A stretch of 38,948 nucleotides of DNA from a bacterium (GTDB taxonomy: Bacteria > Desulfobacterota > Deferrisomatia > Deferrisomatales > BM512), in NCBI GenBank assembly GCA_004322275.1, contig SCTA01000002.1, positions 1 to 38,948 of the forward strand, given 5' to 3'. Positions within the stretch are counted from its first letter, which is position 1; the number at the start of each line of letters is the position of its first letter. Positions 7,380 through 35,732 of the stretch are shown in pieces. Both the position numbers and the translations under genes were made by a program. A model generated the notes under the pieces. That model searched no databases and was not told the DNA's origin. It worked only from the letters and a program-made list of their open reading frames with translations.

Positions 7380-7387
7380 TTCGTCTT

Positions 7388-8056
7388 TTAAAGCTCTCTG
7401 AAATCCGCCCTGCGGTTTTTAGCCCAGGCGTCTTCGTTGGCGGCCGGATCGAGGGGGCGCTCTTCGCCGTAGCTGATTATGTCCATGCGCCTGGAATCGA
7501 TGCGAAGATCCTCAAGGAAGCGGCGTACCGCGTTGGCGCGCCTTTCGCCAAGCGCGAGGTTGTAATCGACGGTGCCGCGCTCGTCGCAGTGGCCCTCGAT
7601 GAGAATCCTTACGTTCGGACGGCTCATCAGGTAGTCGCGGTTTTTCTTGAGGATGTCGGCCGCTTCGGGGGTTATGTTGAACTTGTCGAACTCGAAGTGG
7701 ACGCGCTTCAAATTCCCCTCGTCGGCGGTCCCCGCCGAGGTTTTCGGGGGCACGACGGGAGGCTCGGTCTCGCCCTTCAGAGGCTTGCCGTCGGGGCCGA
7801 GCCCCGCGGCGGCCAGTTTGGCCACCCTCTGTGCTTCCTCCTGAGCCGCCTTCTGGACGGCCGCTTCGCGCTGGGCTGCTATTTCGGCCTCAGTGGGCTT
7901 GGGTTTTTCCTGGCCGGGCTGCGCCGGAGCCTCTTTTTTCACCTCGGCGCCCTTCTGCTGTTCCGACACCGCCTGCTGGCTGCCTGCGCACGCCGAGAGG
8001 AGCCCCAGTACGGCAGCGGACAGAATCAGTCCTTTAAACAGTTTTTTGAAAGTCAT
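7388..8056 (-). CDS. pal: Peptidoglycan-associated lipoprotein Pal
   Basis: Outer-membrane lipoprotein that binds peptidoglycan and TolB. The signal peptide ends in LLSAC (lipobox, lipidated Cys). A long Glu/Ala/Lys/Pro linker precedes the C-terminal OmpA-like domain (VHFEFDKFNITPEA, ILIEGHCDERGTVDYNLALGERRA). The linker makes it longer than E. coli Pal. I start it at the ATG at 8056, whose AAGGAGGAG ribosome binding site lies within the codons of a longer GTG-initiated frame (8080). The gap to tolB is 34 nt. Confidence 0.94.
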   Translation of the reverse strand: MTFKKLFKGLILSAAVLGLLSACAGSQQAVSEQQKGAEVKKEAPAQPGQEKPKPTEAEIAAQREAAVQKAAQEEAQRVAKLAAAGLGPDGKPLKGETEPPVVPPKTSAGTADEGNLKRVHFEFDKFNITPEAADILKKNRDYLMSRPNVRILIEGHCDERGTVDYNLALGERRANAVRRFLEDLRIDSRRMDIISYGEERPLDPAANEDAWAKNRRADFREL

Positions 8057-8090
8057 GCTGAAAAACTCCTCCTTTTTCACTGAGGCGTAT

Positions 8091-9434
8091 CTAATTTTTT
8101 GCCGGGTCGCCGTAGGACCACGAAGGCTGGCTCGCCTTTACGCCAACGGGAGAAACCCGGCGCATGGCGCTGCTGCCCACCCGCAGAACGTAAACACCTT
8201 CTTCGCCGTCCTTCCGGGAAGTGACGGCTAAAAACCGTCCGTCGGGAGACCAACTCGGTTCCAGTGTATCATACGATCCGAAAGTCGCTTGAGAAATTTT
8301 CCCCCCTTCGGGATCGGTTATAAATACCTGAAATACCCCCTTCTCGTCCATACCCGAAAACGCAATTTTTTCGCCGTCCGGAGACCAGGCGGGATCGCCG
8401 TTGTGGGCTCCGGAGAAGGTGATTCTTTTAGGTTCCTCCGAGCCGCCCGCGTCCATCACGAAGATGTTGGGGCTGCCCTTGCGGTCGGAGACGAAGGAGA
8501 TTCTCTTCCCGTCCGGCGACCAGGTCGGAGAGACGTTTATGGAGTTGCCGGAGGTGAGGCGGGTAACGTTCCTTGTGCGCAGGTCAAGCGTGTAAATGTC
8601 GGTGTTGCCCCCGGAGGAGGAGGCGAAGCTGAGCGTCCTGCCGTCGGGAGATTCCTCGCCGGGCATGTCAAGACCCTCCCCCTTGTAGACGTAGCGGAGA
8701 ACCCCCTCGCCGAGGTTGACCCTGCAAAGGTCCGGGACGCCGCCGAAGTAGGAGGAGAGGTAGATGGAGCGGTTGTTTCGCGACCAGACGGGGTGGAGGT
8801 TAAGCGAGCCGTTGTTCGTCACCGGGACCGGCGGGCCGGACTCGTTGAGCCTGGACCGCACGATCTCCTTGGCGCCGCCCTTTTGCGCCACGTAGGCGAT
8901 CTCGCTGCCGAAAGGGCCCGTCTTGCCGGTGAATTTTTCGAGCATGGCGTTGGCGAACATGTGGGCCATGTTGCCTGCGGTATCCCTGCCGCCCCTGTAC
9001 CGCTTTCCGAAGAGAAATTCCCTGCGGAAGACGTCGTAGGCGAAAAGATCGACGACAAGCTCTTCCCCCTCCTGATCGACCTGCCCCTTCACCAGCAGTT
9101 CCGCGCCCGAGACGTACCAGCCTGAAAAGGACTCCGTCGTGGGGACCATCTCCGCCGTCTGGGGGTCTTCGAGGTATTTTTTCGGATCGAGGACCTCGAA
9201 GACGCCGACGAAGTCGAGATCTCTTCTGAGAGTTTCGGCGATGACCGCCTGGGGCTCTTCGGTTCCCCGGCCGGGCCGGAAATTTGCTGATGTTTTCAAA
9301 ACGGGAACGGCGACGGGAACGCGCTTTATGCTGGCGGCGTTGATGTCGATGTAGACTTTGGCCCTGGACAGGGCCGGAACGAGGAGCGCCAGAAAAAGCA
9401 CGAGCGCGCCCGGCAAGACTCTTTTTAGTATCAT
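8091..9434 (-). CDS. tolB: Tol-Pal system translocation protein TolB
   Basis: Periplasmic beta-propeller protein that binds Pal and links it to the inner-membrane TolQRA motor. 447 aa from the ATG at 9434, which has GAGG 6 nt upstream (a TTG at 9437 is adjacent). A Sec signal peptide (about residues 1-24, ending SRA) is followed by the alpha/beta N-terminal domain and then several blades with WSPDG-type repeats. First gene of tolB-pal-cpoB. tolQ, tolR and tolA are not in the window, so the motor genes are elsewhere. Confidence 0.95.
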   Translation of the reverse strand: MILKRVLPGALVLFLALLVPALSRAKVYIDINAASIKRVPVAVPVLKTSANFRPGRGTEEPQAVIAETLRRDLDFVGVFEVLDPKKYLEDPQTAEMVPTTESFSGWYVSGAELLVKGQVDQEGEELVVDLFAYDVFRREFLFGKRYRGGRDTAGNMAHMFANAMLEKFTGKTGPFGSEIAYVAQKGGAKEIVRSRLNESGPPVPVTNNGSLNLHPVWSRNNRSIYLSSYFGGVPDLCRVNLGEGVLRYVYKGEGLDMPGEESPDGRTLSFASSSGGNTDIYTLDLRTRNVTRLTSGNSINVSPTWSPDGKRISFVSDRKGSPNIFVMDAGGSEEPKRITFSGAHNGDPAWSPDGEKIAFSGMDEKGVFQVFITDPEGGKISQATFGSYDTLEPSWSPDGRFLAVTSRKDGEEGVYVLRVGSSAMRRVSPVGVKASQPSWSYGDPAKN

Positions 9435-9498
9435 CAATAACCTCGGGCGGAACTGGGTGTTCCGTCCTCAGGCAACCCTGGAAATCATGTTTCGCCGA

Positions 9499-9527
9499 AT
9501 GTTAGTTTCTAACTGTCGCCAAGTCAA
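9499..9527 (-). promoter_or_regulatory. Sigma70-like promoter of tolB-pal-cpoB
   Basis: On the minus strand: TTGACT (9527-9522), a 17-bp spacer, and TAACAT (9504-9499). It lies 65 bases upstream of the tolB start and just after the tRNA terminator, consistent with an independent promoter. Confidence 0.6.
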
Positions 9528-9550
9528 GGAACGGCGGGAATGAAAAAGTG

Positions 9551-9576
9551 AAAAAGGCCGCCTCGACGGCGGCCTT
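9551..9576 (-). terminator. Intrinsic terminator of the tRNA-Val/Asp/Asp cluster
   Basis: On the minus strand AAGGCCGCC (9576-9568) pairs perfectly with GGCGGCCTT (9562-9554) across a 5-nt loop and continues into a T-run. It lies 10 bases past the last tRNA. Confidence 0.85.
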
Positions 9577-9585
9577 GCGCAAATC

Positions 9586-9662
<77 letters not shown>

Positions 9663-9690
9663 GCGTATCAGAAAATTTAAGAAAGAAGAA

Positions 9691-9715
9691 GGCTACCGTG
9701 CAGGACACGGTAGCC
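9691..9715 (-). terminator. Perfect 10-bp hairpin between the two tRNA-Asp genes
   Basis: GGCTACCGTG (9691-9700) pairs perfectly with CACGGTAGCC (9706-9715), with a 5-nt loop. On the minus strand it is followed by a pyrimidine-rich TTCTTCTTTCTTAAATTTTC, so it could be a partial terminator or a processing signal between the tRNAs. Confidence 0.5.
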
Positions 9716-9729
9716 CCCTTCTGCGATTT

Positions 9730-9806
<77 letters not shown>

Positions 9807-9827
9807 GCGAATCGGCATACTGAATTT

Positions 9828-9903
9828 TGGTAGGCGGAACAGGTCTCGAACCTGCGACCTCCGGCTTGTAAGGCCAGCGCTCTTCCAACTGAGCTATCCG
9901 CCT
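9828..9903 (-). tRNA. tRNA-Val (TAC)
   Basis: 76 nt with encoded CCA. The acceptor stem pairs AGGCGGA with TCCGCCT, discriminator A. The anticodon stem CTGGC/GCCGG encloses CTTACAA, giving anticodon TAC. First of the three tRNAs in transcription order. Its 5' end abuts the repeat element at 9904-10088. Confidence 0.96.
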
Positions 9904-10088
9904 GTGAATTTAAAAACTGCTGCGAACCCCGTTTTTTATGTCGCGTGCTCACTCGGAAGCTCGCCGTAGCGCTGCTACTGCCTCGCTCCCTCGCTGCGCG
10001 GCTCCTCAAAACCGGGATTCTCGCGACGTTTTTTGCAGCCTGTGAATTTTTAAAAACTGCTGCGAACCCCGTTTTTTATGTCGCGTGC
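9901..10088. repeat. Second copy of the dispersed element, bounded by a 48/50-bp direct repeat
   Basis: 9901-9948 and 10039-10088 are the same sequence except for two extra T in the second copy. They begin at the last bases of the tRNA-Val gene. Between them, 9911-10038 is a diverged, oppositely oriented copy of the element at 2902-3045. Both start AAAAACTGCTG, share the GTCGCGTGCTCACTCG core, then a CTCGCT-rich stretch, and end near CG(C/A)ACGTTTTT. The remaining 10089-10202 shows no gene or clear signal. No transposase or coding frame is present. Confidence 0.7.
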
Positions 10089-10202
10089 CCGCCGCCGGGA
10101 ACTAAAAACCGCGCCGGCAAACCTCTTCGCATAAAATGGATTGCCCAAACCCGGAAGAGCGCTTTGCGCCTCCCTTTGTAACCGGGGGCTTTTTCGGGAG
10201 CC

Positions 10203-10475
10203 TTAGGCTACCTTGTCCTTGAGGGCTTTTCCGGCCTTGAACTTCGGGGCCTTGGTTCCCTTGATGACCATCTCTTTGCCGGTCTGGGGATTTCTGCCCT
10301 TGCGGGCCTTGCGTTCGCTGACGCTGAAAGTCCCGAAGCCGACAAGGGCTACCTTGTCGCCACCCTTCAGGGTGTCCGTGACAGTCTCGGTGAATGAGTC
10401 CAGAAACCGCTTTGCCGCAGCCTTGGAAACATCGGTTTTTTCAGCCATTGCATTGATGAGTTCAGCCTTCGTCAC
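10203..10475 (-). CDS. hup: HU family DNA-binding protein
   Basis: Small dimeric nucleoid protein of 90 aa. It shows the typical [28 protein letters not shown] helical N-terminus and the [26 protein letters not shown]-binding arm with the conserved RNPQTG. It starts with GTG, with a strong AGGAGGG 6 nt upstream. It lies directly after lon, as hupB does in E. coli, but has its own promoter. Confidence 0.95.
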
Positions 10476-10512
10476 GGTTATCCCTCCTTAATGTTGGCCA
10501 TGTAGGCGCCGG

Positions 10513-10542
10513 TTTATATCAACTGTCGAGGACCAGTGTCAA
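10513..10542 (-). promoter_or_regulatory. Strong sigma70-like promoter of hup
   Basis: On the minus strand: TTGACA (10542-10537, perfect), an 18-bp spacer, and TATAAA (10518-10513). It sits immediately past the lon stop, giving hup independent and probably high expression. Confidence 0.75.
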
Positions 10543-10550
10543 GGCAGTTT

Positions 10551-13013
10551 TTACTGCATCTCGTGAACTCCGGCCCCCTCGCCCTTGGTAAGGGGAACCG
10601 GCAGCGGGAAGCCGAGCATTTCGTCGACGGTGCGCTCCGGATCGTGCTGCCTGGCGAGGATTTCCTCGGGGTGGTCTGTTTCGAGTGCAGTGTAGAGCAC
10701 TTTGTCCATGTGTTCCACAAATATTATTTCAAGGGCGCTCAAAATCGAACGGGGAAGGCCGAGATCGGCGAGATCTTTCTCGTTCTCGGCGGGAAGGATG
10801 ATCTTCGTAATCCCGCCCCTGTGCGCCGCGAGCAGCTTTTCCTTGATTCCGCCGATGGGCAGGACCTTGCCCCTGAGGGTTATTTCACCTGTCATCGCCA
10901 CGTTTTTCCGGACAGGTATGCCGGTGAGCGCCGAGGTGAGGGCGGTGGCTATGGTGATTCCCGCGGAGGGGCCGTCCTTGGGGATGGCTCCTTCCGGCAC
11001 GTGGATGTGGATGTCGATCTTCTGGTAAAAATCCCGCTCCAGGCCCAGATTGTGCGCCCTGCTCCTGACGTAGGAAGCGGCGGCCCTGGCGGACTCCATC
11101 ATTACGTCGCCGAGCTTGCCGGTAATCGTGAGGTTGCCTTTTCCCGGCAGGAGGACGACCTCTATGCCGAGAAGCTCTCCGCCGGTCTCCGTCCAGGCAA
11201 GACCCGTCGCGTAGCCGATCTCGCTCTTCTCCTCCGCCCTGCCGAATTTGTACTTCGGAACGCCGAGGAGCTTCCTGACAAGCTGCTGGGTTACGCGGAT
11301 CGTCCTCTTTGAGGATTTTCCGGCCTTCACCACGTCCTTGGCGATCTTGCGGCAGATCCTGGCGATACGCCTCTCAAGGCTCCTGACGCCCGCCTCCCGG
11401 GTGTAGAGGCGGATTATGTCCAGAAGGGCAGTTTCGGTGAAGGCTACCTCTTCGGGTTTCAGGCCGTGGCCGGCAAGCTGCTTGCCGATGAGGTGGCGCT
11501 GGGCGATGCTTCGCTTCTCCTGCTCGGTGTAGCCGGAAATCTCGATAAGCTCCATCCTGTCGCGAAGGGGCGGCGGGATGTTCGGCAGGTAGTTGGCCGT
11601 CGTTATGAAAAGAACCCGGCTCAGGTCGTAATCCATGTCGAGGTAATGATCGTTGAAGGTGTCGTTCTGCTCGGGGTCGAGGACCTCCAGCAGCGCCGAA
11701 CTCGGATCCCCGCGAAAATCCGCGCTCATCTTGTCGACTTCGTCGAGCAGAAAGACCGGATTGTTGGTGCCCGCCTTCTTGAGGCTCTGGAGTATCTTGC
11801 CCGGCATCGAGCCGATGTAGGTCCTGCGGTGGCCGCGTATCTGCGCCTCGTCGCGCACTCCGCCGAGGCTGAGGCGGACGAATTCCCTGCCCGTCGCCCG
11901 AGCTATGGAGCGGGCGAGGCTCGTCTTGCCGACGCCGGGGGGGCCGACGAAGCAGAGGATGGGAGCCTTCGTGGTGCCGACAAGCTCCAGCACGGCGAGG
12001 TGCTCGATTATCCTCTCCTTGACCTCCTTGAGGCCGTAGTGGTCCTCGTCGAGTATCTTTTCCGCCTCGGCTATAGGAACGACGGTCTTCGAGAGATTGT
12101 TCCAGGGAAGGTCGAGTATCCAGTCGATGTAGTTGCGCACCACGGTGGCCTCGGCCGACATGGGCGACATCATCTTCAGCTTCTGGACCTCTTTTTTAGC
12201 CTTTACCCTGACCTCCTCAGGCATGTCCTTCTGCTGGACCTTTTCGAGCAGCTCCAGGACCTCGTTGGCGTTGTCGTCGCTCTCGCCGAGCTCTTTTTGA
12301 ATCGCCTTCATCTGCTCGTTGAGGTAGTACTCTTTCTGGGACTTCTCCATCTGCTTCTTTACGCGCCTTTTAATCCGGCGCTCGATCTCCAGGACCTCCG
12401 TCTCGGATTTTAAAATCTCGTAGATTTTCTGGAGGCGCTCCACCGGGTCGAAGGTTTCGAGAAGCTCCTGCTTGTCGGCGGTCTTGATGGAGAGGTTCGC
12501 GGCGATGGTATCGGTGAGGCGCGAGGGATCGTCGATCTCGCTTAGCGAGCCGACGATCTCGGCCGGGAGTTTCTGGTTTAGCTTCGCGTACTCGGAAAAG
12601 CTCTCTATGACGGTGCGCATGAGCGCTCTCGCCTCCACGCCGGAACCGGCGCCCTCGGCGACTTCGGCGACGCTGACGAGCATGAACCGTTCAGAGGAGA
12701 GGTATTCCGCGATGCGGGCGCGCCTTTTGCCCTCGACGAGAACCTTCACGGTTCCGTCGGGGAGCTTGAGGAGCTGGACTATGGACGCGATTGTCCCGAC
12801 CCTGTTTATCTCTTCGGGCACGGGCTCGTTCGTCTTCGCTTCCTTCTGGGTGGAGAGGATGATGTCCCTGCCGGAGGAGAGCGCCTCTTCCAGGGCGAGA
12901 ATGGACTTCTCGCGCCCCACGAAGAGGGGAATAACCATGTGGGGGAATACGACTACGTCGCGCAGGGGCAACAAGGGGAGCACGAACCCCTTTACTTCGC
13001 TGGAAATGGCCAT
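10551..13013 (-). CDS. lon: ATP-dependent Lon protease
   Basis: Cytoplasmic AAA+ serine protease that degrades misfolded and regulatory proteins. 820 aa, slightly longer than E. coli Lon (784). An N-terminal substrate-binding LON domain ([24 protein letters not shown]) is followed by the AAA+ module (Walker [12 protein letters not shown], Walker [10 protein letters not shown]) and a C-terminal protease domain with the Ser-Lys dyad (PKDGPSAG and the Lys following [15 protein letters not shown]). Lies 25 nt after clpX and is probably co-transcribed. Confidence 0.97.
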
Positions 13014-13038
13014 ATTGTTGACTTCTCGTTATTTTCTC

Positions 13039-14298
13039 TCAGGCTTCCTGCTGAGCGTTCTTTTTCTCTTCATAGAGGATTATCGGCGACTGGCCGTTCA
13101 GGATCACATCTTCGTTTATGATGATCTCCCGGGCGTTGTTCTGGGACGGTATGTCGTACATGAGGTCAAGCATGACCGTTTCCATGATGGCTCGAAGCCC
13201 TCTGGCCCCGGTCTTTCTCGTGACTGCCTCCCTGGCGACCGCTTTGCGCGCTCCCTCGGTGAACTCCAGCTTGACCCCTTCCATCTCGAAGAGCCTTCTG
13301 TACTGCTTAAGGAGGGCGTTCTTCGGCTCCGAGAGTATGCGGGTGAGCGCTTCCTCGTCGAGCTCCTGGAGGGTCGCGTGGATCGGCATCCTGCCGACGA
13401 ACTCCGGGATCATCCCGTACCTGACGAGGTCTTCGGACTGCACCAGAGAAAGTATACCTGACTCGCGCTTCTTGCGGCGGCTTTCGACCTTCGCTCCGAA
13501 GCCGATGGATTTCTTGCCGATGCGCCTCTCGATCACCTCTTCGAGGCCGATGAAGGCTCCGCCGCAGATAAAGAGGATATTCTTTGTATCCACCTTTATG
13601 TATTCCTGCTGGGGGTGCTTTCTGCCGCCCTTGGGGGGCACGGAGGCCACCGTGCCCTCGACGATCTTCAAAAGGGCCTGCTGGACGCCCTCGCCGGAGA
13701 CGTCGCGGGTTATGGAGGGCCCCTCGCTCTTCTTGGCTATCTTGTCAACCTCGTCGATGTAGACGATGCCCTTGGAGGCGCGGTCCACGTCGTGGTCGGC
13801 GTTCTGGAGGAGGGAGAGGATGATGTTCTCGACATCCTCGCCGACGTAGCCCGCCTCGGTGAGGCTGGTGGCGTCGGCCATCGCGAAGGGGACGTTCAGG
13901 AATTTCGCGAGGCTCTGCGCCAGCAGGGTCTTGCCGGAGCCGGTCGGGCCGATGAGGATGATGTTGGCCTTTTCGAGCTCGGCCTCGTCCTTCATGGCGG
14001 GCGCGTAAATTCTCTTGTAGTGGTTGTAAACCGCCACGGAGAGGACCTTCTTGGCCGACTCCTGCCCGATTACGTACTGGTCGAGGAAGGTTTTAATCTC
14101 GGCGGGGGTAGGGACGTTCTCCCGGTCGCGCTCCCCGAGGTCTCCCGCCTTCTCTTCTGCGATAATGTCGGTGCAAAGGTTTATGCACTCGTCGCAGATG
14201 TAGGCCGAGGGGCCGGCGATGAGTTTCGTCACCTGCCTCTGGCTCTTTCCGCAAAAAGAGCAGTGGAGTTCGCCGGGTTTGTCTTTTCGTGTGCTCAA
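13039..14298 (-). CDS. clpX: ATP-dependent Clp protease ATP-binding subunit ClpX
   Basis: AAA+ unfoldase that feeds substrates into ClpP. 419 aa from the proposed TTG at 14298, close to the usual ~420 aa. The N-terminal zinc-binding domain ([15 protein letters not shown]), Walker A ([12 protein letters not shown]), Walker B (IVYIDEVDK) and the IGF loop for ClpP docking (KKSIGFGAK) are visible. The frame is open to 14388, but the extra residues look unlike ClpX and the TTG has GAGG 4 nt upstream. No ATG precedes the zinc domain. Confidence 0.95.
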
Positions 14299-16717: not shown

Positions 16718-17431
16718 ATGGAACAGAGGGGAGGGGGGGACTTTGCAACCGGGTCCGGCGCAAACGCGCCCGGGCCGGAAAAGCTTTTTGCCCTCCGGAT
16801 GCGGATATCGCCGCTCGCCCCCCTCGCAAGGGATTTTTACCTGGGTCTGATTGGTTTCACGGGGGGAAAGGGGGTGGCTGTCGGCGCACCCGCCGTGGAT
16901 CTTTTCACCGGCGCAAAGGGAGTCCCGGGGCTCTCCTATGGCCTGCCCGGAACGGCGGCCGCCTGCTCCCTCGATTACGCGCTCTCGCCCCTAAGGGGGT
17001 TTTCGCTTCTGCCCTCGGCGGAAGAGGTTGTCCGCTCCTTTCGGGAGATAGCGCGGGTTCTCAAGCCGGGGGGACTTCTCGCCTTCGACCTGGACAACTG
17101 CTGCCCGGAAAAGACGGGGGAGGGGACGATGCGCGTAATAGGCGCCGCCCGCCTTCCCAACGGGGCGCAGGGGGTCATCAGCGAGTCGCGCTCCGCGCTT
17201 CCCGGAGGGAGGAAGACCTTTTGCAGGCTTGGCTTGGAGGAGCTCGACGGGTCGGGAAAGGTGAAGTTCAAGAGCTACCACACCCTGACCCTGCTCACGC
17301 TTTCGCACAACAAAGTTCTTGATCTGGCGAGAAGCGCCGGGTTCGAGGCGGAGGGAGTCTTCGGAGGCTTCAAGATGGAACTCTTCGACAGCTCTTCTCC
17401 GACGCAGCTTTGGCTTTTCAGGAAGTTATGA
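16718..17431 (+). CDS. Degenerate class I SAM-methyltransferase-like protein
   Basis: 237 aa from the ATG at 16718 (GGAG upstream; a TTG-initiated frame begins at 16691). The central block EEVVRSFREIARVLKPGGLLAFDLD matches the post-motif region of class I methyltransferases, and the C-terminal half resembles their substrate-side strands. The N-terminal SAM-binding region is abnormal: there is no D/ExGxGxG motif I, and the ~60 residues normally between motif I and the acidic motif are mostly missing (compressed to roughly VDLFTGAKG...SLDYALSP). It may be non-catalytic or an in-frame deletion product. Its stop overlaps the next start (ATGA). First gene of the operon. Confidence 0.6.
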   Translation: MEQRGGGDFATGSGANAPGPEKLFALRMRISPLAPLARDFYLGLIGFTGGKGVAVGAPAVDLFTGAKGVPGLSYGLPGTAAACSLDYALSPLRGFSLLPSAEEVVRSFREIARVLKPGGLLAFDLDNCCPEKTGEGTMRVIGAARLPNGAQGVISESRSALPGGRKTFCRLGLEELDGSGKVKFKSYHTLTLLTLSHNKVLDLARSAGFEAEGVFGGFKMELFDSSSPTQLWLFRKL

Positions 17432-18681
17432 CCGGGGGTGGGCGGATGAACGGAGAAAATCGCATCCCGGCCGATCCCGGGATCGGCGACGAAACTCTTT
17501 TACGGGCGGCGGCGCATTTCGGAACGCCCCTCTTCGTCTACGACGAAGGGGTGCTGAGGCGAAAGTGGGAGCGCTTGCGAAACCTTCTTCCTCCCTGCGT
17601 CGATATCCTCTACTCGGTCAAGGCCAACCCCGCCGTCGATGTGATAGCCGCCTTCGCGGCCCTGGGCTGCGGCTTTGACGTGGCCTCGCAGGGGGAGGCG
17701 GCAGCCGTCTCTCTGGCGGGCGGAAACCACGCCAAATCCGTCTGGGTCGGCCCCGGCAAGTCGGAGGGGGACCTTCGCTTCGCCGCCGGCGCCGGTATCG
17801 GGGTCCTGGCGGTCGAGTCGGAAGGGGAGTTCGGAAGGGTCTGCAAAATCGCCGAAGAGCGCCCTTTCCCGCCTCTCGTCGCGCTTCGCCTGAATCCGGG
17901 CGGGGGCGGAGGTTCCCTTTCGATGTCGGGCGCGACGCAGTTCGGCGCGGATTTCGACACCGCCGTAAAACTTCTTTCAAAAGAGTCCGGGAGAAAGGTC
18001 GAGATATCGGGGGTTCACGGCTATCTCGGCACCGGACTTCTGGACGCGCGAAAGCTCGCGGCGAATATGGGGCTGGTTTTAAGGGAGGCCGAACGCCTCC
18101 AGAGGGCTACCGGCAGGCTCCTCTCCTTCGTGGACGCGGGAGGGGGGTTCGGCGTTCCCCTCTATCCCGGCGATGCCCCCCTGGACGAGGAAATTCTTAC
18201 GGAGGAACTTTACGACCTCTTCGGGCGCTACCTCGACCGCCACCCCTGGACGGAGGGGCTTTTTGTGGAGTCGGGGCGCTTCCTCACGGCGGAGGCGGGG
18301 GTGATGGTGGCGAGGGTTCTGGACGTAAAGCGGGTCCACGGTAGGAATTTCGCCATAGTGGACGGGGGAATAAACGCCATCGGGGGAAGGGACGGCTACC
18401 TCGGGTCAAAGCACCCGCCCCTTCGCATTCTCGGGAAAGAGGGAGAGGGAGATACCCCGTACACCGTGTGCGGCCCGCTCTGCACCCCGATGGACCGCCT
18501 TGCCGTGAACGTCCGCCTCCGCGAGCCAAAGGAGGGAGACCTGGTGGCGTTTTATATGGCTGGAGCCTACGGCCCTTCGGCGAGTCCCGGCCGCTTTCTT
18601 TGCAGGGGGTTCCCAGAGGAGGTCATTTTTCGCGGCGGGGGACTGACGAGGTGCCGGACGGTATGGGGAGGCGGCGCATGA
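17428..18681 (+). CDS. Fold-type III PLP-dependent amino acid decarboxylase (DAP/ornithine decarboxylase family)
   Basis: 417 aa. Alanine-racemase-type barrel with PLP lysine in YSVKANP (Lys65), GCGFDVASQGE, HGYLGTG, the phosphate-binding DAGGGFG, ESGRFL, and the C-terminal catalytic cysteine region CGPLCTPMD (Cys352) and AGAYG. This family includes diaminopimelate and ornithine decarboxylases, BtrK and VinO (which act on carrier-bound amino acids), and an exosortase-associated group. Sitting next to an ACP rather than in a lysine operon, it most likely acts on a carrier-tethered substrate. Start at the ATGA overlap with the previous gene; an ATG at 17446 is an alternative. Confidence 0.88.
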   Translation: MTGGGRMNGENRIPADPGIGDETLLRAAAHFGTPLFVYDEGVLRRKWERLRNLLPPCVDILYSVKANPAVDVIAAFAALGCGFDVASQGEAAAVSLAGGNHAKSVWVGPGKSEGDLRFAAGAGIGVLAVESEGEFGRVCKIAEERPFPPLVALRLNPGGGGGSLSMSGATQFGADFDTAVKLLSKESGRKVEISGVHGYLGTGLLDARKLAANMGLVLREAERLQRATGRLLSFVDAGGGFGVPLYPGDAPLDEEILTEELYDLFGRYLDRHPWTEGLFVESGRFLTAEAGVMVARVLDVKRVHGRNFAIVDGGINAIGGRDGYLGSKHPPLRILGKEGEGDTPYTVCGPLCTPMDRLAVNVRLREPKEGDLVAFYMAGAYGPSASPGRFLCRGFPEEVIFRGGGLTRCRTVWGGGA

Positions 18682-18941
18682 AGAAGGGCGGCGTGGGTGA
18701 GGAAATAGGAAGAATCATCGCGGAGGTCTCCTGGGGGGGCGTCCAGCCTTCGGAGCTGCGCCCCGGCGACAGGCTGAGGGAGGACATAGGACTCGATTCG
18801 GTCGCGTTGGTCGACCTTATCGTCGCTCTTGAGGGGCGCTACGGCATCTGCGTGGATCCGCTCGACCTACGGGTCGCCGAGGCTTTTTCGACTTACGGCA
18901 GTCTCCTCGAATTTGCCCTTGAGGAGATGGAAAAGAAGTGA
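18678..18941 (+). CDS. Free-standing acyl/peptidyl carrier protein
   Basis: 87 aa. A four-helix carrier protein with the phosphopantetheine attachment site in EDIGLDSVALVDLIVALE (Ser41). It is acidic and ends in a Glu-rich helix. Its ATG overlaps the decarboxylase stop (ATGA) and its TGA shares one base with the next ATG, so it is made in step with its neighbours. It is not next to fab genes, so a dedicated pathway role is likely, comparable to BtrI or VinL. No phosphopantetheinyl transferase is in the window. Confidence 0.9.
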   Translation: MKKGGVGEEIGRIIAEVSWGGVQPSELRPGDRLREDIGLDSVALVDLIVALEGRYGICVDPLDLRVAEAFSTYGSLLEFALEEMEKK

Positions 18942-20368
18942 TGGGGGGAGTCTTCGGAGAGCCGCCGGGGAGAATGGCTCCGAAGGAGGGGGGAGGAGGG
19001 GAGATAATCGTCCCCAACGTCTTCGAGTTCAACCGCGCCTTCATGGACGCGGGGTTCTCCTGCTCCCACCGCCTTGCGTGGCACGCGGGCGCGTTGCCGG
19101 TGGCGGAGTGCTCACTCTTCTGGGGCGGCTCCGAAAAACTGGTTTTTCTGCCGCTTCGCCCGGACCCCTTGTGGGTGGAGGATGTGCAAGAAGCGATGGG
19201 GTACCGCCGTCTGGAGGTCTTCCATCCGCCCTCACGCCTTGCAGGGCTTTGCAGTGCGGCGCAGACGGAGCGGTTGAGGGAAGTTCTCGACGCGGGATGG
19301 AAACCGGCGAAGCTGCTCCCGTGGGGGGCTGGCGGGGAGCTTTATTCTCTGGCGGATTTTCTGGGTGAAGAGAATTTCCCCCTCGGCGGCGAGGTGACGC
19401 CGCGCGAGCGCTTTTTCGAGGCGTTGAATCTGGATTCAAAGGCGGGTTTCAGGCTCGCGGCATCCTTCCCCGGCTCCGGGATACGCATGCCGGAGGGGTT
19501 TGTCATGCCCACCCTGGGCGACGCGCTGGGCCTTCTCCCGCGTTTCGTCGAAAGGGGCGGCGGGGTGCTCAAGGCCAACCACGGCGCGGGCGGGACCAGC
19601 GTCGTCCTCTTCCCGGCGGGTCGCGGGTTCTCACCTGAGGCGGCGAAAAGGGCGATGGAGGCGAGGTGCAGGTGGGACCCCTTCTGGCTCCAGAGTCCCG
19701 TCATCATAGAGGAGCTTATAGGTTCCGGCGAAGCCGTTCCCGCCGTGACGGCGGATTTTTTCAGCGGGGAAGGGGGAAGCTCCCGCCTTGTTGGTGCCGG
19801 GCGGATGAGGATCGCGGCGGGAACGCGCTACTGCGGCCTTTTGGGCGGGCGCGGAGCTCTAAGCGGAGAAGTCCTTGCCGAAATTGAGAAGGCCGGTGAG
19901 CAAATCAGCCGGATTCTTGCCGGGAGAGGCGTGAGGGGGTGGTTCAACGCGGATTTCGTCTCCGGCGACGGGGGGACTCTTTACGTGACCGAGGTAAACG
20001 TCCGGCGAAGCTGCGCCACCCACGGTTTTGACGCCGCCAGATTCCTCTACGGCGAGGGGTGGGCGGGCGAGATAGCCCTTCTCGTGAACGAGCGCCTGAC
20101 CTTTACCGGCGGAAAGCCGGACTACCCCTCCCTGCGAAGAGGGTTTTCAGCCTACAACAAAAAAGGACGCGATCGCGGCGTCTGGGCGATACCGGCTTCC
20201 GTAAACGGAGGGCTCCGGCAAAAAACTCCCCGCATCTCCTTTCTTCTTTTCGCCCCCGGAGCCGGAGACCTTCCCGGGGAAGAGAAAATCCTGGCCGCGC
20301 ACCTCGAAAGAGAGACCGGGAAACGCTGCGCCTCGCCGCCCCTGCCGCACAGGACACTCGGCCCATGA
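18941..20368 (+). CDS. ATP-grasp family ligase, paralogue 1
   Basis: 475 aa. The C-terminal two-thirds shows ATP-grasp features: GGGVLKANHGAGG (Lys211 and glycine loop), VIIEELI hinge, and the Mg-binding FNADFVSGDGG...TEVNVR (Glu351, Asn353). The N-terminal ~150 residues form a family-specific pre-ATP-grasp domain ending in LLPWG, shared with the next gene. ATP-grasp enzymes join a carboxylate, through acyl phosphate, to an amine or thiol. In butirosin biosynthesis BtrJ loads glutamate onto an ACP, a useful model here. The substrate cannot be read from sequence. The start shares one base with the ACP stop. Confidence 0.8.
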   Translation: MGGVFGEPPGRMAPKEGGGGEIIVPNVFEFNRAFMDAGFSCSHRLAWHAGALPVAECSLFWGGSEKLVFLPLRPDPLWVEDVQEAMGYRRLEVFHPPSRLAGLCSAAQTERLREVLDAGWKPAKLLPWGAGGELYSLADFLGEENFPLGGEVTPRERFFEALNLDSKAGFRLAASFPGSGIRMPEGFVMPTLGDALGLLPRFVERGGGVLKANHGAGGTSVVLFPAGRGFSPEAAKRAMEARCRWDPFWLQSPVIIEELIGSGEAVPAVTADFFSGEGGSSRLVGAGRMRIAAGTRYCGLLGGRGALSGEVLAEIEKAGEQISRILAGRGVRGWFNADFVSGDGGTLYVTEVNVRRSCATHGFDAARFLYGEGWAGEIALLVNERLTFTGGKPDYPSLRRGFSAYNKKGRDRGVWAIPASVNGGLRQKTPRISFLLFAPGAGDLPGEEKILAAHLERETGKRCASPPLPHRTLGP

Positions 20369-21642
20369 AAAGCTGCGCTTTTTCCAACATCGAGGAATTC
20401 TACCGCCCGCAGATGTCCGGGTTTGACGAGCGCACAAGCGCGAAGTGGTCTTTCGAGTGCTCCGCGCTCTCGCCGCTCGCCCTCTTCTGGGGTTTTGCGG
20501 ATGGCACCGTCTTCCTTCCGGAAGAAGCGGATGAAGCGTTTCTATCGTATATAAAAGAGAGACTCGGCCTCGGCGCTCTTCGCGTAATCGTCCCCCGTCC
20601 GGGAAGCCACGGGCTTTCAAGGTCAATCCTGAACGACTCCGCAGCCTTCGAGGCTTTGCTGCGGCTTGCCGGGGAAGGGGCGGCGCTCCTGCCGTGGGGG
20701 GAGTCGGAGGGTTACCGCGAGCTTCTGGGGGAACTGGCGAAGGAGACCTGGCGGGACGGATTAAATAATCACGGCGAATTGTGGAAGGTGCGGTATCTGG
20801 GCTCGAAGTCGGGGTTTCGCCACTTCTTCAGCCAAAGGGGGGCGAGACTTCCCGAGGGGAGAATCGCCGGGAACGTCCGCCTTGCGGCGGGGCTGGCCGG
20901 GGAGTTTCTAGACCGGGGCGAAGGGGTGGTTCTGAAGGCCGATTGGGGCGTGGGCGGCAAGTGCCAGCTAATCGTCCCTTCCTCCGGCAAGAAAAGATCC
21001 CTCGCGCCTCTTTCGCGGTGTATACCGGAACTAAAGGCGGGGGCGGTAATAGTTGAGAGATTCATCGAAAGCGCAGGCCATCCCGCTTCCGTCTCCTGTC
21101 AGGGAGAAGCCGACGGACGCGGCGGATTTTCAATTCACTACCTTTCGGCGCACCTCGAAAAATCCCTCTCCGGCGAAGGGGCTCTCATCGGCAAAGGCGC
21201 TTTTGAATCCCCGGCGCTCGAAGGGCAGGCGAGGAAGCTCGGCTTCTTCGCCGGGAAGTGCGTCTCCGCCTTCGGCTACGCGGGCGTCTGCGGCTTTGAC
21301 ATGGCGGTGGACGGCGAAGGGGTCCCCTGGCTCCTTGAAATGAACCCGAGGCGGACGACTACGACCCACGGCGCGGCGCTGGGGGAGCTGCTTCTCGGCG
21401 ATGGCTGGGAGAAAACGCACTGCGTGGCGGTGGCGATGGACGCGGTTTGCGGCGATACTTTCGCGGAGGTAAAAAAAGCCTTGGCGGAACTCCTCTTTCC
21501 TGCCGGGGGAAACCGGGAGGGAGTCGTGATAACCGCTCCGCCTAAAGGCGGGAAAGGGTCTTTCGCCGCGCTGGCGAGAGACGCGGGTAATGCGCGGAAG
21601 TATCTGGCGGCGGTAAGGGAGAGGTTTCGATGGGGGGGATAG
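20365..21642 (+). CDS. ATP-grasp family ligase, paralogue 2
   Basis: 425 aa. Clearly related to the preceding gene: both share LLPWG, a SK(A/S)GFR segment, G(V)VLKA-x-x-G-x-GG (Lys191 here), an E-x-N Mg site (LLEMNPRR, Glu325/Asn327), and THG shortly after. Identity looks low overall, so the duplication is old or both belong to one broad family used as a pair. Starts by ATGA overlap and ends 13 nt inside the next gene. Two ligases could make two successive bonds or take different substrates. Confidence 0.8.
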   Translation: MKSCAFSNIEEFYRPQMSGFDERTSAKWSFECSALSPLALFWGFADGTVFLPEEADEAFLSYIKERLGLGALRVIVPRPGSHGLSRSILNDSAAFEALLRLAGEGAALLPWGESEGYRELLGELAKETWRDGLNNHGELWKVRYLGSKSGFRHFFSQRGARLPEGRIAGNVRLAAGLAGEFLDRGEGVVLKADWGVGGKCQLIVPSSGKKRSLAPLSRCIPELKAGAVIVERFIESAGHPASVSCQGEADGRGGFSIHYLSAHLEKSLSGEGALIGKGAFESPALEGQARKLGFFAGKCVSAFGYAGVCGFDMAVDGEGVPWLLEMNPRRTTTTHGAALGELLLGDGWEKTHCVAVAMDAVCGDTFAEVKKALAELLFPAGGNREGVVITAPPKGGKGSFAALARDAGNARKYLAAVRERFRWGG

Positions 21643-23135
21643 AGGAGTTTCTGCTTGAGGGGGCTGCGAATCGCCCGGAGGCGATTGCGCTTATCGACCC
21701 CTGCGGGAAACTTCGCTACGGCGAACTGGAAAAACTCTCGCGCAGGGTCGCGGGGAGGCTGAAAGTTTCCGGAGCCTCGGAGGGCGACAGAATCCTCATC
21801 GCGGCGAAAAACAGTGTTGGTTACTGCGTGCTCTTCCTCGGGACGCTACTCGCCGGGTGCATCCCCTGCCCTGTCCACCCCGGCTGGCCCGGGGAGCGTT
21901 TTCGCAGGATAGTTGATTCGTCCGGGCCTTCGGCGGTCTTCGCCGACGAAGCCGGGCGGGAGGCCCTCCAAAACTCGTTCCATCCCCTTATTCCCTTACA
22001 TGAGTTCGTCTTCGGGAAAAGCGCCTCGAAAATCCAGTGGCGAAGGGGCGAAATAGGTTCTGACTCGCCTCTGACCGCAATAATGCACACCTCGGCCTCC
22101 TCCGGCGAGCCCAAGGGGGTGATGCTGGGGGAAAGCGCCGTCCGCTGGGTCACGGAGGCGATAGCCGGAGTGCTGAAATACGATAACAAAGACGTAATCC
22201 TCTGCGGCCTCCCTTTCGCCTTCGACTACGCGCTCTACCAGCTCTTTCTGGCGCTGAAGAGCGGCGCGGCGATGATAATCAACCCCGATTTCGGGAGTCC
22301 CCCGGAGATTCCCGGATTGCTGGGCCGTCACGGGGTGACCGTCTTTCCCCTCGTCCCCTCGCTCGCCTCGCTCCTCCTCCGCTCGCGGCTTCTGGAGCGG
22401 GCGGACCTCCCCCCCCTCCGGCTCGTCACCTCCACCGGCGAGGTCTTTCCCGCAGCCCATGTGCTACGCCTTCGCGAGACGCTGAAAGGGGCGGAAATAC
22501 TGCCGATGTACGGCCTCACCGAGTGCAAGCGGGTCTCCATAACGCCGCCGGGCACTCCGGCGGGGCGGGAGCGCTCGGTCGGCCTCCCCCTGCCCGGCAC
22601 GGAGATACGGCTCGTAAACGAAAGGGGGATGGAGGCGGGGTGCGGCGAAACCGGGGCGCTACACGTCGCCGGGCCGCACCTCATGGACGGCTACTGGCGC
22701 GACCGCGAAGAGACGCAGGAAAAGTGGTACACTGGCGTCGGCGGCAAGCGGTGGCTCGACACCGGCGACCTCCTCTCCCGCGACGAAGAGGGGTTTTTGT
22801 ACTTCGAGGGGAGGCGCGACGGACTCCTCAAAATCCGTGGAGAGCGGATACACCCCGCCGAGGTCGAGGTTGTCCTCGCCGGCATCCCCGGCGTCGCCGA
22901 GGCCGCCGTAATTTTGACGAATCAAAAAGAAACGCGCGCGAAGCTCTTCGCGCTCATCCACCCCGAAGCGGGAGCGCAACTTGACGAAACAGCCATCCTC
23001 CGCGAATGCCAAAAAAGGCTTCCGCCGGCCTGGCGGCCTGACGGAGTCGTACTCTCCTTCGCCCCCCTGCCGCGAAACTCCAGCGGCAAGCTCGACAGGA
23101 ACTCCGCCGGTGCGCTCGCTCTTGCCTTGTCCTAA
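21630..23135 (+). CDS. AMP-forming acyl/aminoacyl ligase (ANL superfamily)
   Basis: 501 aa, a single adenylation enzyme without carrier or condensation domain. Motifs in order: A3 TSASSGEPKGV, A4 region LPFAFDYALYQLF, A5 YGLTECKR, A7 LDTGDL, A8 KIRGERIHPAEVE, and A10 NSSGKLDR with catalytic Lys487. The FDYxLxQL segment resembles the AMP-ligases found with a PLP decarboxylase in exosortase loci; an Asp here also fits binding of an amino group. Likely role is to activate an acid and pass it to the neighbouring ACP. Overlaps the ATP-grasp gene by 13 nt. Confidence 0.88.
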   Translation: MGGIEEFLLEGAANRPEAIALIDPCGKLRYGELEKLSRRVAGRLKVSGASEGDRILIAAKNSVGYCVLFLGTLLAGCIPCPVHPGWPGERFRRIVDSSGPSAVFADEAGREALQNSFHPLIPLHEFVFGKSASKIQWRRGEIGSDSPLTAIMHTSASSGEPKGVMLGESAVRWVTEAIAGVLKYDNKDVILCGLPFAFDYALYQLFLALKSGAAMIINPDFGSPPEIPGLLGRHGVTVFPLVPSLASLLLRSRLLERADLPPLRLVTSTGEVFPAAHVLRLRETLKGAEILPMYGLTECKRVSITPPGTPAGRERSVGLPLPGTEIRLVNERGMEAGCGETGALHVAGPHLMDGYWRDREETQEKWYTGVGGKRWLDTGDLLSRDEEGFLYFEGRRDGLLKIRGERIHPAEVEVVLAGIPGVAEAAVILTNQKETRAKLFALIHPEAGAQLDETAILRECQKRLPPAWRPDGVVLSFAPLPRNSSGKLDRNSAGALALALS

Positions 23136-23583
23136 GACTTTGCGGGCGCTTCTCGCCCTCTTTCTTTTCCTTCTTATCGCGGCAAGCGCCCGCGCCGAGT
23201 GGCGAAAGTGCCTCTACGTAATCGACGGCGACACCATCATAGTCTCCGGTCAGGAAAAGGTCCGCCTCATCGGCGTGGACGCTCCCGAGATACCCCACGA
23301 AGACAAGCCCGGCGAACCCGGCGGCGAAAAAGCCCGGAAGTTTCTGAAAAAGCTGGTCGAAGGCAAGAAGGTCAACCTCGAATACGACTGGGAGCGGCTC
23401 GACAAGCACGGCCGCACCCTCGCCTACGTCTACACCGAAGAGGGCAAACTCGCCAACGAAGAGCTCATCTTGTCCGGCAACGCCGAAGCCATGAGGCACT
23501 TCACCTATTCAAAAAAGGAGAGGTTTCTGGAGGCGGAGAAGAAGGCAAGGCAACATAGGGAACGAAAGCCGGCAAAACCATAA
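23110..23583 (+). CDS. Secreted thermonuclease (SNase) family nuclease
   Basis: 157 aa from GTG at 23110, which has AGGA 9 nt upstream and overlaps the ligase gene by 26 nt; a TTG at 23125 is another option. A Sec signal peptide (LRALLALFLFLLIAASARA) precedes the staphylococcal nuclease domain: YVIDGDTIIV, RLIGVDAPEI (Ca2+/catalytic Arg region), ERLDKHGRTLAYVY and NEELILSGNAEA. It probably cleaves nucleic acid in the periplasm or outside. The overlap suggests co-transcription with the biosynthetic operon, but a shared function is not obvious. Confidence 0.88.
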   Translation: MRSLLPCPKTLRALLALFLFLLIAASARAEWRKCLYVIDGDTIIVSGQEKVRLIGVDAPEIPHEDKPGEPGGEKARKFLKKLVEGKKVNLEYDWERLDKHGRTLAYVYTEEGKLANEELILSGNAEAMRHFTYSKKERFLEAEKKARQHRERKPAKP

Positions 23584-23665
23584 ATCTTCCCGCCGGTTAG
23601 CAATTTAACGGATCGTAGCAAACGCCTGGACGCCATGATAAACTATTTCAACAGGGGGATTGATA

Positions 23666-24208
23666 ATGCCGACCATCAGCACGTTTTATGGAATTTTGAT
23701 CCAGATGTTCTGGCAGGATCATGCGCCGCCGCATTTTCACGCGCTATATGCAGAGAGCGAAGCACTCATAGATATACACACGCTGGAAATTCTTGAGGGA
23801 CAATTGCCCCGCCGTGCGCTGGCGCTGGTGCTGGAATGGGCAATGGAGCACCGAGCCGAGCTTCTGGAGGATTGGGAACTGTGTTCACGCATGCAGCAGC
23901 CGAAAAAAGATTCATCCCCTGACCTGACGCCTGCGGTCAGCCCCTCCATGCCATGGCGGGTTGCCGAGGTAAAGGTTTTGGGCGATTACCGGCTTTTCGT
24001 CCGCTTTGTCGATGGGCTTACCGGCACCGTCGATATGAGCGCGTTCATAAAGTCGGAAGAGGCGGGAGTATTTTCCGTCCTCGCCGACCCTCTTCTCTTC
24101 GATCAGGTCTACACCCTCCACGGCGCGGTAACGTGGCCAGGAGAACTCGACATCGCCCCCGACGCCATGTACAGGCAGATTCGCGAAAAAGGCGAGTGGA
24201 GGCTGTAA
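23666..24208 (+). CDS. DUF4160-DUF2442 fusion protein
   Basis: 180 aa from the ATG at 23666 (GGGG upstream). Residues 1-80 match the DUF4160 pattern (PTISTFYGILIQMFWQDHAPPHFHA, LPRRALALVLEWA). From residue 95 (an internal in-frame Met at 23948) DUF2442 begins (WRVAEVKVLGDYRLFVRFVDG, TWPGELDIAPDAMY). These two families usually sit as adjacent small genes of unknown, possibly toxin-antitoxin-like, function. The first half uses AT-richer, less host-like codons than the second, suggesting mixed origin. A GC hairpin directly follows the stop. Confidence 0.82.
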   Translation: MPTISTFYGILIQMFWQDHAPPHFHALYAESEALIDIHTLEILEGQLPRRALALVLEWAMEHRAELLEDWELCSRMQQPKKDSSPDLTPAVSPSMPWRVAEVKVLGDYRLFVRFVDGLTGTVDMSAFIKSEEAGVFSVLADPLLFDQVYTLHGAVTWPGELDIAPDAMYRQIREKGEWRL

Positions 24209-28854: not shown

Positions 28855-29460
28855 GTGAAAACTCTTGTCGTCTCCATCCGCATGGCTCTCGCCACCCTGG
28901 TGCTGACCGGCCTGCTCTATCCGCTTTTCGTCACCGGTCTGGCGCAGGCGCTCCTCCCCTTTCAGGCCAACGGAAGCCTGATAGCCGATTCCGAAAGCAG
29001 GAATATCGGCTCGGAGCTGATAGGGCAGGATTTTAAATCCCCCGCGTACCTCAACCCCCGTCCCTCCCCGGCCGGAAACGGCTACGACGGCTCGGCCTCT
29101 TCCGGCTCGAACCTCGGCCCCTCCTCGGCTGCGCTGAGGGACAGAGCGCTCGGAGCTTTTAAAGCCCTTGAGGAAAACAACCCCGAGGCCGGAGGAAAGG
29201 TGCCTCTGGACCTCATAACCGCCTCCGCCAGCGGCCTTGACCCGCACATATCCCCAAATGCCGCCCTTTGGCAGGTTCCCCGCATCGCAAAAGCGCGAGG
29301 CGTCTCGCCCGAGAGGGTTAAAGCGCTGATTGAAGACCGGGTGGAAGGCAGAACCCTCGGTTTCATGGGCGAACCCCGCGTAAACGTGTTAACGGCCAAC
29401 ATCGCGCTTGACCGGCAATTCGGCCGCCCGAAACCGGCGAGAGGGAAGCCGGGTGACTGA
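28855..29460 (+). CDS. kdpC: Potassium-transporting ATPase subunit KdpC
   Basis: 201 aa, starting with GTG. One N-terminal membrane helix is followed by the periplasmic/assembly domain with [21 protein letters not shown], a SGSNLGPSS stretch, [21 protein letters not shown] and the [19 protein letters not shown] end, all typical of KdpC. The stop overlaps the kdpD start by 8 nt. Confidence 0.96.
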
Positions 29461-30595
29461 TCAACGGCCTACTCCGCGCGATTTCCTTGAGATAGTTCAG
29501 CGCGCCAGGCAAGGAAGGCTCAAGGTCTATCTCGGTTTCGCGGCGGGGGTCGGCAAAACCTACCGTATGCTTCAGGAAGCCCACGCCCTCAAAAAGCGCG
29601 GGGTCGATATCGTGATTGCCTCGGTGGATACCCACGGCAGGCCGGAGACGGCGGAATTGCTGCCCGGTCTGGACAAGGTTCCCCTCAGGAAAATCGAATA
29701 CAGGGGGGTGACGGTAGAGGAAATGGACCTCGACGCCGTTCTGGCCCGAGCGCCGACCATAGCCATCGTGGACGAGGTCGCTCACACCAACGCGCCGGGA
29801 TCAAGAAACACCAAAAGATACAAAGACATTCTGGAACTTCTCGGCGCGGGCATAAATGTCGTCTGCGCCTTCAACATCCAGCACCTCGAAAGCCTCAACG
29901 ACGTAATAGAAAGGGCTACCCGTGTAAGGGTGCGCGAAACGGTGCCCGACACCTTCCTCGAAAGGGCGGACCAGATCGTAAACGTCGATCTTCCCGTCGA
30001 GGAACTCGTCGAACGCCTCAAAATCGGCAAAATTTACGCTCATGACAAGATCCCCGTGGCCCTGGAGGGTTTTTTCAAGGACGCCAACCTTCTTGCCCTG
30101 AGGGAGCTCACCTTCAGGGAGATTGTCGACAGTCTGGAGCGCATCGGCGCGCCCAAAGCCGGAGAAACGGGCAAGCCCACCGGCCCGAACCGGGTAATGG
30201 TCTGCATATCCTCCATGCCCGAGCGCTCCGCCGCGCTTTTGAGGCACGGGTCGAGGATGGCGGGAAGGCTGAACACGAAGTGGTACGTCGTTTACGTCCA
30301 GACGCCCGCCGAAGCGCCGAATCGCATCTCTTCGGAAGCGCAGCGGCATCTGCTGGACAATTTCCAGCGGGCGCAGGAGCTGGGAGCGGAAGTAGTGCGC
30401 CTTTACGGCAAAGACCCGGTCGAGGCGGTTCTGGATTTCGCCCGCTCCCACGGGGTGGGCTACATGCTCATCGGAAGAAGCCGGCGCAACTGGTTTTACC
30501 GGCTCCTGGGCCGGGATCCCATGCACAGAATGGTTGACATGGCGGAGGGGCTGGATCTCAACATCGTCTCTCTTGAACATGGAGAAAACCCGTGA
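29453..30595 (+). CDS. kdpD: Truncated KdpD: KdpD sensor domain plus USP domain, no kinase
   Basis: 380 aa from the GTG at 29453. Residues about 20-230 form the KdpD N-terminal domain with Walker A ([12 protein letters not shown]) and the [19 protein letters not shown] Walker B-like motif. A USP domain follows (about 245-375, [20 protein letters not shown] to [10 protein letters not shown]). The four-helix membrane region, HisKA and ATPase domains of full-length (~900 aa) KdpD are missing; the next gene supplies a kinase. Short KdpD proteins are known in some bacteria. It may sense K+ or c-di-AMP through the USP domain, which is an inference. Confidence 0.92.
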
Positions 30596-32418: not shown

Positions 32419-32424
32419 AAAAGC

Positions 32425-33801: not shown

Positions 33802-34019
33802 CCGGCTATTTTGTTCCCCCGCGCCCCGCCAGTCAACCCCGCCTTCCATATGCGAAACCGTAGAAGACCGAGGTGAAAAAATCCCGATTTTAGCGCCCGT
33901 CCGCCGGTTTTTCCGGTATTATTCTGGTTGTCCGCCAAGACGTTCGTTACGCGCCATATAGTAATAATGTATAGTCTCCTCCCCTGGAGGCTTAACGGTA
34001 AGCGAAGAGGAGTAACGGG

Positions 34020-34232: not shown

Positions 34233-34261
34233 TTGTCGGTGTGCCTTCAAAATACTCTATT
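34233..34261 (+). promoter_or_regulatory. Possible sigma70-like promoter of ahcY
   Basis: TTGTCG (34233-34238), a 17-bp spacer, and TCTATT (34256-34261): 4/6 matches in each box. It would give a leader of about 105 nt. Confidence 0.35.
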
Positions 34262-34373
34262 TTGGACCGTCAAAGAGTGATAAAGTCAGAGGCTGGCAAA
34301 ATCTTTGTGCAGTTTTTATCTTTTCACCGGTGATGACAACGAAGTGAAGAACACAGCCGCTACAGAAGGTTCT

Positions 34374-35657: not shown

Positions 35658-35676
35658 AATTTTTTTGATTTGTTTT

Positions 35677-35692
35677 GAAACCAATTGGTTTC
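35677..35692. repeat. 16-bp perfect palindrome between ahcY and the cytochrome gene
   Basis: GAAACCAATTGGTTTC is its own reverse complement. It lies 20 bases after the ahcY stop and 153 before the cytochrome start. It could be an operator; without a loop it is less likely to be a terminator. Confidence 0.55.
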
Positions 35693-35714
35693 GGCGAAGT
35701 ATTTCAAAGTGAAT

Positions 35715-35732
35715 GTCGCGAGAAGTCGCGAC
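35715..35732 (+). terminator. Hairpin downstream of ahcY
   Basis: GTCGCGA (35715-35721) pairs perfectly with TCGCGAC (35726-35732) across GAAG, followed after a few bases by ATTTT. A probable terminator for ahcY, with only a short T-tract. The AT-rich stretch at 35760-35800 beyond it probably holds the cytochrome promoter, but I cannot fix its boxes. Confidence 0.5.

Follow-up and report, generated by a model that had tools for sequence, protein, structure and literature searches.

Contig 2 of a 2.88 Mb bacterial genome (G000; Desulfobacterota, Deferrisomatales, BM512), a stretch of 38,948 nucleotides referred to here as the window, carries an operon for a candidate carrier-protein pathway. 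Four of its genes, encoding a pyridoxal 5'-phosphate (PLP)-dependent fold III decarboxylase (DC), a stand-alone acyl carrier protein (ACP) and two ATP-grasp ligases (AG1 and AG2), have an unchanged order in three of the family's genera. In the window they lie between a methyltransferase-like gene (P0001) and a gene for an adenylate-forming ligase (AMP-ligase, P0006; Table 1). We somewhat favour the interpretation that the operon specifies a pathway analogous to those of BtrI/J/K in butirosin and VinL/N/O in vicenistatin biosynthesis, in which an acidic amino acid would be loaded onto the ACP, decarboxylated there and then amidated. The protein sequences make decarboxylation on the carrier the likely part of this scheme; a division of loading and coupling between the two ATP-grasps is put forward only tentatively. 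Carrier-bound amino-acid decarboxylation is known from few antibiotic pathways, and here it would be a fixed, apparently family-wide trait of a small-genome lineage.

Conservation of the gene order

The window was compared with four further species of its family: G001, from the same genus, G002 and G004, which share a second genus, and G003, from a third. The order DC-ACP-AG1-AG2 is identical in the window, G002, G003 and G004. The four proteins are only about 30-50% identical across genera, and the retention of their order in spite of this divergence indicates that the linkage is not due to chance. The ACP gene adjoins the DC gene in every assembled relative (G002, G003 and G004). The G001 assembly is fragmented, with the methyltransferase-like and DC genes at one contig end and the ligase and a staphylococcal nuclease (SNase) homologue at another, and ACP, AG1 and AG2 were not found in this fragmented assembly. 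The first-pass annotation of the window had named homologues scattered and unlinked in relatives as the observation that would speak against a pathway, and had called for a search of other genomes for the gene order with the ligase included. The relatives show linkage kept in three genera; what they share is DC-ACP-AG1-AG2, and the ligase falls outside the conserved order.

Among 395 sampled genomes of the phylum, full-length AG1-type matches occurred only in G000, G002, G003 and G004, and those in seven other genomes were short and weak. The DC-ACP-AG1-AG2 arrangement was not found in the 391 other sampled genomes. The block in the window, and likewise in G001 and G003, is next to a tRNA-Leu gene and the trigger factor gene. 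The contig stretches read for G002 and G004 showed neither of these, and there the next gene past AG2 encodes glutamate dehydrogenase. As the neighbours differ between these two groups of genomes, the gene order has outlived a change of neighbours. In G002 (locus L021, region 6547-9138) AG2 contains an in-frame TAG, and the C-terminus of AG1 is altered and shortened; these lesions represent either decay or an assembly error, and both frames are open in G004 of the same genus.

Decarboxylase and carrier protein

The best PDB match of the DC, obtained with a profile of four family proteins, is BtrK (1.3e-79). In the window protein the PLP lysine is K65, and C352 lies within the motif GPLCTPMD. 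This motif reads GPLCTP(M/T)D in the window, G002 and G004, GPLCTPLD in G003 and GPLCTPED in BtrK. The LysA form is GPICE(S/T)GD, and the pocket Glu of LysA is replaced by Thr in P0002, which does not carry the GPxCESGD signature. From these features the DC is classed as BtrK/VinO-like and not LysA-like. BtrK decarboxylates glutamyl-S-BtrI (PMC7857480), and VinO decarboxylates 3-methylaspartyl-VinL only after loading by VinN (PMC11284099).

In a tree of 88 sequences the family DCs form a clade of their own (97/85), with a Bacteroides protein as sister on a long branch (100/99). The only outside member of the DC clade, it comes from locus L030 (Bacteroides sp. 519, 7000-13500). Its neighbours there are a true methyltransferase, an ACP, uncharacterised proteins and a weak radical-SAM match, and the locus may specify a different carrier pathway.

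The carrier protein has the phosphopantetheine serine of a stand-alone ACP (Ser41, in GLDSVALVDL). Its nearest NCBIfam families are AsbD and AmcB, both below cut-off. The G000 genome contains one PF01648 (AcpS-type, ACPS-family) match, whose predicted product is the likely activator of P0003.

The ATP-grasp pair

AG1 and AG2 are paralogues (E-value 1.8e-22, 30% identity). AG2 matches the PreATP-grasp domain PF18604 at 31.3 bits (cut-off 27.5) and PGM1 at 4.5e-8. AG1 itself matches no Pfam family, and the folds closest to its AlphaFold2 model (13 sequences; predicted template modelling score 0.69) are PGM1 (3wvr, 3.5e-19), an ATP-grasp peptide ligase (8ynd, 1.2e-18) and BesA (8yi6, 1.4e-14). 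The Lys, Glu and Glu-x-Asn-x-Arg residues of ATP-grasp peptide ligases are present in both proteins, the catalytic residues kept in AG1/AG2 being Lys212/191, Glu258/231, Asp339/312 and E-x-N-x-R. In AG1, Lys212, Glu258, Asp339, Glu352, Asn354 and Arg356 are invariant with BtrJ-type ATP-grasps. AG2 is the closer of the two to outside BtrJ-type enzymes: its profile reaches DC-adjacent ATP-grasps of other phyla at down to 4e-21, compared with 1e-9 for the AG1 profile. The comparison of AG2 with BtrJ-type ligases was made through a relative with PF18604 and PGM1_C, the ATP-grasp at the BtrK-clade locus L065, and not through the BtrJ sequence itself.

AG1 and AG2 fall into two clades, each supported at 100/99 and both present in the four family members with an assembled locus. 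Together they exclude outside enzymes (100/100), which points to one duplication older than the family. The two are PGM1/BtrJ/BesA-type ligases from one old duplication that have been retained as a pair, and they offer a natural test of how ATP-grasps share out loading and coupling.

A genome scan for DC relatives, which was not exhaustive, returned at least 80 loci. Among those listed, at least 24 have a neighbouring ATP-grasp homologous to AG1/AG2 and at least 26 a neighbouring AMP-ligase, and a free ACP is often present as well. In Paenibacillus and Actinomycetota, homologous ATP-grasps adjoin homologous DCs and ACPs among the matches listed, and none of these matches outside the family has two ATP-grasps at one locus. 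The Paenibacillus locus L065 combines a BtrK-clade DC and an ATP-grasp with a weak adjacent BtrH_N match and is butirosin-like.

AG1 and AG2 share their fold and ATP-binding residues with PGM1 (pheganomycin), 8ynd and BesA, which are not known to act with a carrier protein or decarboxylase partner; unlike these enzymes, the operon ATP-grasps have ACP and decarboxylase genes alongside. As these closest solved folds belong to ligases of free peptides or amino acids, a carrier-independent dipeptide pathway was also considered. AG1 and AG2 would then join free amino acids in the manner of PGM1, BesA or an L-amino acid ligase, the DC would use a free conjugate in the manner of MccE or FigC, and the ACP and AMP-ligase would form a separate acyl-loading branch. 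The related decarboxylases FigC, SbnH and MccE do use non-carrier conjugates (PMC7857480). However, the DC and ACP genes are translationally coupled in the window as well as adjacent in the assembled relatives, and the nearest solved relative of the DC is the ACP-dependent BtrK. A dipeptide pathway of this kind appears unlikely.

The AMP-ligase and its distribution

The best PDB match of P0006 is 3wvn (2.2e-65; record title 'Non-ribosomal peptide synthetase'), which we take to be VinN. Asp199 of P0006 aligns with VinN Asp230, and K300/R301 of its TECKR motif align with VinN K330/R331, where VinN residue numbers were obtained by subtracting 16 from the chain numbers, in keeping with the numbering of VinN. 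DC-linked ligases are split by a 100/100 branch into TEC(K/H)R and TE(A/S)FR types, with P0006 on the VinN side; the TEAFR clade is taken to be the exosortase type. P0006 is on these residues assigned to the VinN type and not to the exosortase type.

Among the five family genomes a P0006 orthologue was found only in G001 (55% identity), and TECKR ligases only in G000 and G001. In G002, G003 and G004 the top ligase matches show about 26-31% identity, and TECKR is missing from those in which the motif is readable. P0006 is a genus-level addition to the ATP-grasp core. The earlier claim that both loading types surround one ACP therefore holds for the window and not for the conserved core. With the VinN-type ligase present in one genus and missing from others, which enzyme loads the carrier can be tested directly.

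VinN loads 3-methyl-Asp, and Asp poorly, and FlvN loads Asp (PMC11284099); on this basis the P0006 substrate is best guessed to be an acidic amino acid, and by analogy we give it about an even chance of being the substrate in the window's genus. Glutamate mutase was rejected as a source of 3-methylaspartate, the match to glutamate mutase E (PF06368) in G000 being below cut-off.

Alternatively, P0006 could charge the ACP with a carboxylic acid, such as a fatty acid, for amidation with an amine made by the DC. AMP-ligases of its superfamily often activate fatty or aryl acids, and many of its NCBIfam matches are acyl-CoA ligases. P0006 nevertheless retains both the Asp with which amino-acid adenylation enzymes bind the amine and the TECKR motif of VinN, and two genera keep the remaining genes with no ligase at the locus. 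Such an N-acyl amine route is considered very unlikely.

Proposed pathway

In the carrier pathway that we favour, AcpS would convert P0003 to its holo form through Ser41, and an acidic amino acid (aspartate and glutamate being the likeliest) would be loaded on the ACP via its side-chain carboxyl, leaving the alpha-carboxylate free. The loader would probably be P0006 in the window's genus and one of the ATP-grasps in the other genera. P0002 is expected, from BtrK/VinO homology and its motif, to strip the alpha-carboxylate from the tethered residue and yield a beta- or gamma-aminoacyl-ACP. AG1 and AG2 would make amide bonds, one likely as the loader or as a BtrJ-like ligase of a second residue, the other in a further coupling step or in release. 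The product may be a small amine or amide. A fuller version, in which the two ATP-grasps work one after the other on the same ACP around just one decarboxylation step, with a VinN-type loader added in one genus, to give an unknown short beta- or gamma-amino amide without NRPS (nonribosomal peptide synthetase), PKS (polyketide synthase) or exosortase, is speculative and rather doubtful.

The carrier logic, already proposed in the first-pass annotation, gains support from the BtrK/VinO-like DC, the free ACP, the BtrJ/PGM1/BesA-group ATP-grasps and the similar linkage in Paenibacillus and Actinomycetota. Several points weigh against the pathway as drawn. The AG1 sequence has diverged strongly, and confidence in its model is middling (predicted local distance difference test score, pLDDT, of 62). 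The branch of the 88-sequence tree that places the DC with BtrK and ATP-grasp-linked proteins is weak (75/82). Neither BtrH nor a condensation domain was found in G000 to account for release, and two of the three genera lack the candidate loader P0006 at the locus. In VinN, Asp230 is presumed to bind the amine, and it and the TECKR residues presumably contact the substrate.

Comparison with known systems

Like butirosin BtrI-BtrJ-BtrK, the operon has adjacent genes for a free ACP, a GPLCTPxD fold III PLP decarboxylase and a PreATP-grasp/PGM1-type ligase. Unlike that module, it has two paralogous ATP-grasps in place of one, a DC from a separate clade, methyltransferase-like and SNase genes and, in the window's genus, a VinN-type ligase. 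BtrH_N was not found in G000, and no butirosin or aminoglycoside genes were present among the scanned neighbours. G003 carries a clear BtrH_N gene (C64, 15282-15677, L149; 1.7e-47) on a contig other than that of its decarboxylase cluster.

With vicenistatin VinL-VinN-VinO(-VinM) the operon shares a TECKR VinN-type ligase beside an ACP and a decarboxylase of the ACP-dependent type. It differs in that the ligase is a genus-level addition and in that no second adenylation enzyme (VinM), acyltransferase (VinK) or PKS was found in the operon or its neighbours, the scan being limited to these genes. By analogy, the ATP-grasps may take the role of VinM. An NRPS was rejected, as a search of the five family genomes for the condensation domain (PF00668) found none.

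It is highly improbable that P0002 is an ordinary decarboxylase of free diaminopimelate, ornithine or lysine that stands beside unrelated ligases by chance. It shares the fold III superfamily with LysA and ornithine decarboxylase, but its pocket Glu is lost, its linkage to ACP and ATP-grasp genes is kept in three genera, and a separate LysA with GPICESGD is encoded in G000 (C18). A LysA or ornithine decarboxylase role was rejected on the motif and this separate LysA. An exosortase-A-type surface system, in which a related DC and ligase also lie side by side and whose families TIGR03099 and TIGR03098 are the best NCBIfam matches of the DC and ligase, is largely refuted and was rejected, the scores being far under the curated cut-offs (271.5 of 478.45 and 259.6 of 592.35 bits), the ligase having TECKR and not the TEAFR of the presumed exosortase-type clade, and no exosortase (PF09721) being found in the whole G000 genome. 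Among the family an exosortase gene is present in G004 only (C16, 21798-22553, L146), on a contig separate from the cluster.

Little was found in the literature on BtrJ or BtrK with an ATP-grasp and ACP, in a search outside which most subscription journals lay, and a prior description is possible. The first-pass annotation had called the pathway undescribed, which overstates the case. Each step has a counterpart already characterised for butirosin or vicenistatin; the novelty lies in the gene combination, the paired ATP-grasps and the lineage.

Operon layout and neighbouring genes

The six reading frames are all on the plus strand, and their overlaps, read directly from the bases, are exactly the ATGA, TGATG and 13-nucleotide (nt) overlaps reported earlier. 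Pfam scans of the neighbouring genes likewise agree with the earlier reading that condensation, ketosynthase and exosortase genes are all missing from the vicinity of the operon.

Table 1 Genes of the operon and its probable last member in the window
Gene	Product	Position	Strand	Features
P0001	Methyltransferase-like protein, first operon gene	16718-17431	+	matches C-terminal half of class I methyltransferases only
P0002 (DC)	PLP-dependent fold III decarboxylase, BtrK/VinO-like	17428-18681	+	ATGA overlap; PF02784 (2.7e-31), PF00278
P0003 (ACP)	Stand-alone acyl carrier protein	18678-18941	+	ATGA overlap; PF00550 (3e-7)
P0004 (AG1)	ATP-grasp ligase	GTG 18938 or ATG 18941 to 20368	+	TGATG overlap; AG2 paralogue
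P0005 (AG2)	ATP-grasp ligase, more BtrJ/PGM1-like copy	20365-21642	+	ATGA overlap; PF18604
P0006	Adenylate-forming AMP-ligase, VinN-type	21630-23135	+	13-nt overlap; PF00501 (5e-68)
	Secreted SNase homologue	23140-23583	+	PF00565 (6.9e-21)

The SNase gene starts 4 nt past the ligase stop and is probably the seventh and last gene of the operon. It follows the ligase in G001 and, in G003, comes directly after AG2 by a few nucleotides with no ligase between. It thus apparently closes the operon in two genera, with no obvious tie to the chemistry.

P0001 matched the methyltransferase domain PF08241 below cut-off (0.0024), and its profile matched 9sot at 6e-8 over profile positions 83-224. No glycine-rich S-adenosylmethionine (SAM) motif I is conserved among the four P0001 orthologues, and a single-sequence structure prediction reached a pLDDT of 33. 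Its sequence suggests that P0001 is probably not a working methyltransferase. Orthologues precede the DC gene in G001, G002 and G004, and none was found in G003. Three relatives (loci L020, L021 and L138) thus share this protein with the window, again lacking SAM motif I, and it is possibly a non-catalytic partner of the pathway.

Elsewhere in the window, two minus-strand frames of 550 and 590 amino acids (34257-35909 and 37123-38895) gave no Pfam match at 0.001. The region at 29408-33849, next to the kdp genes, encodes a separate KdpD sensor and Usp domain protein, a separate PAS/HAMP histidine kinase and, on the opposite strand, a sigma-54-type response regulator, an unusual split of KdpDE. 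At 23660-24208 a single protein combines DUF4160 and DUF2442, a pairing usually encoded by two genes.

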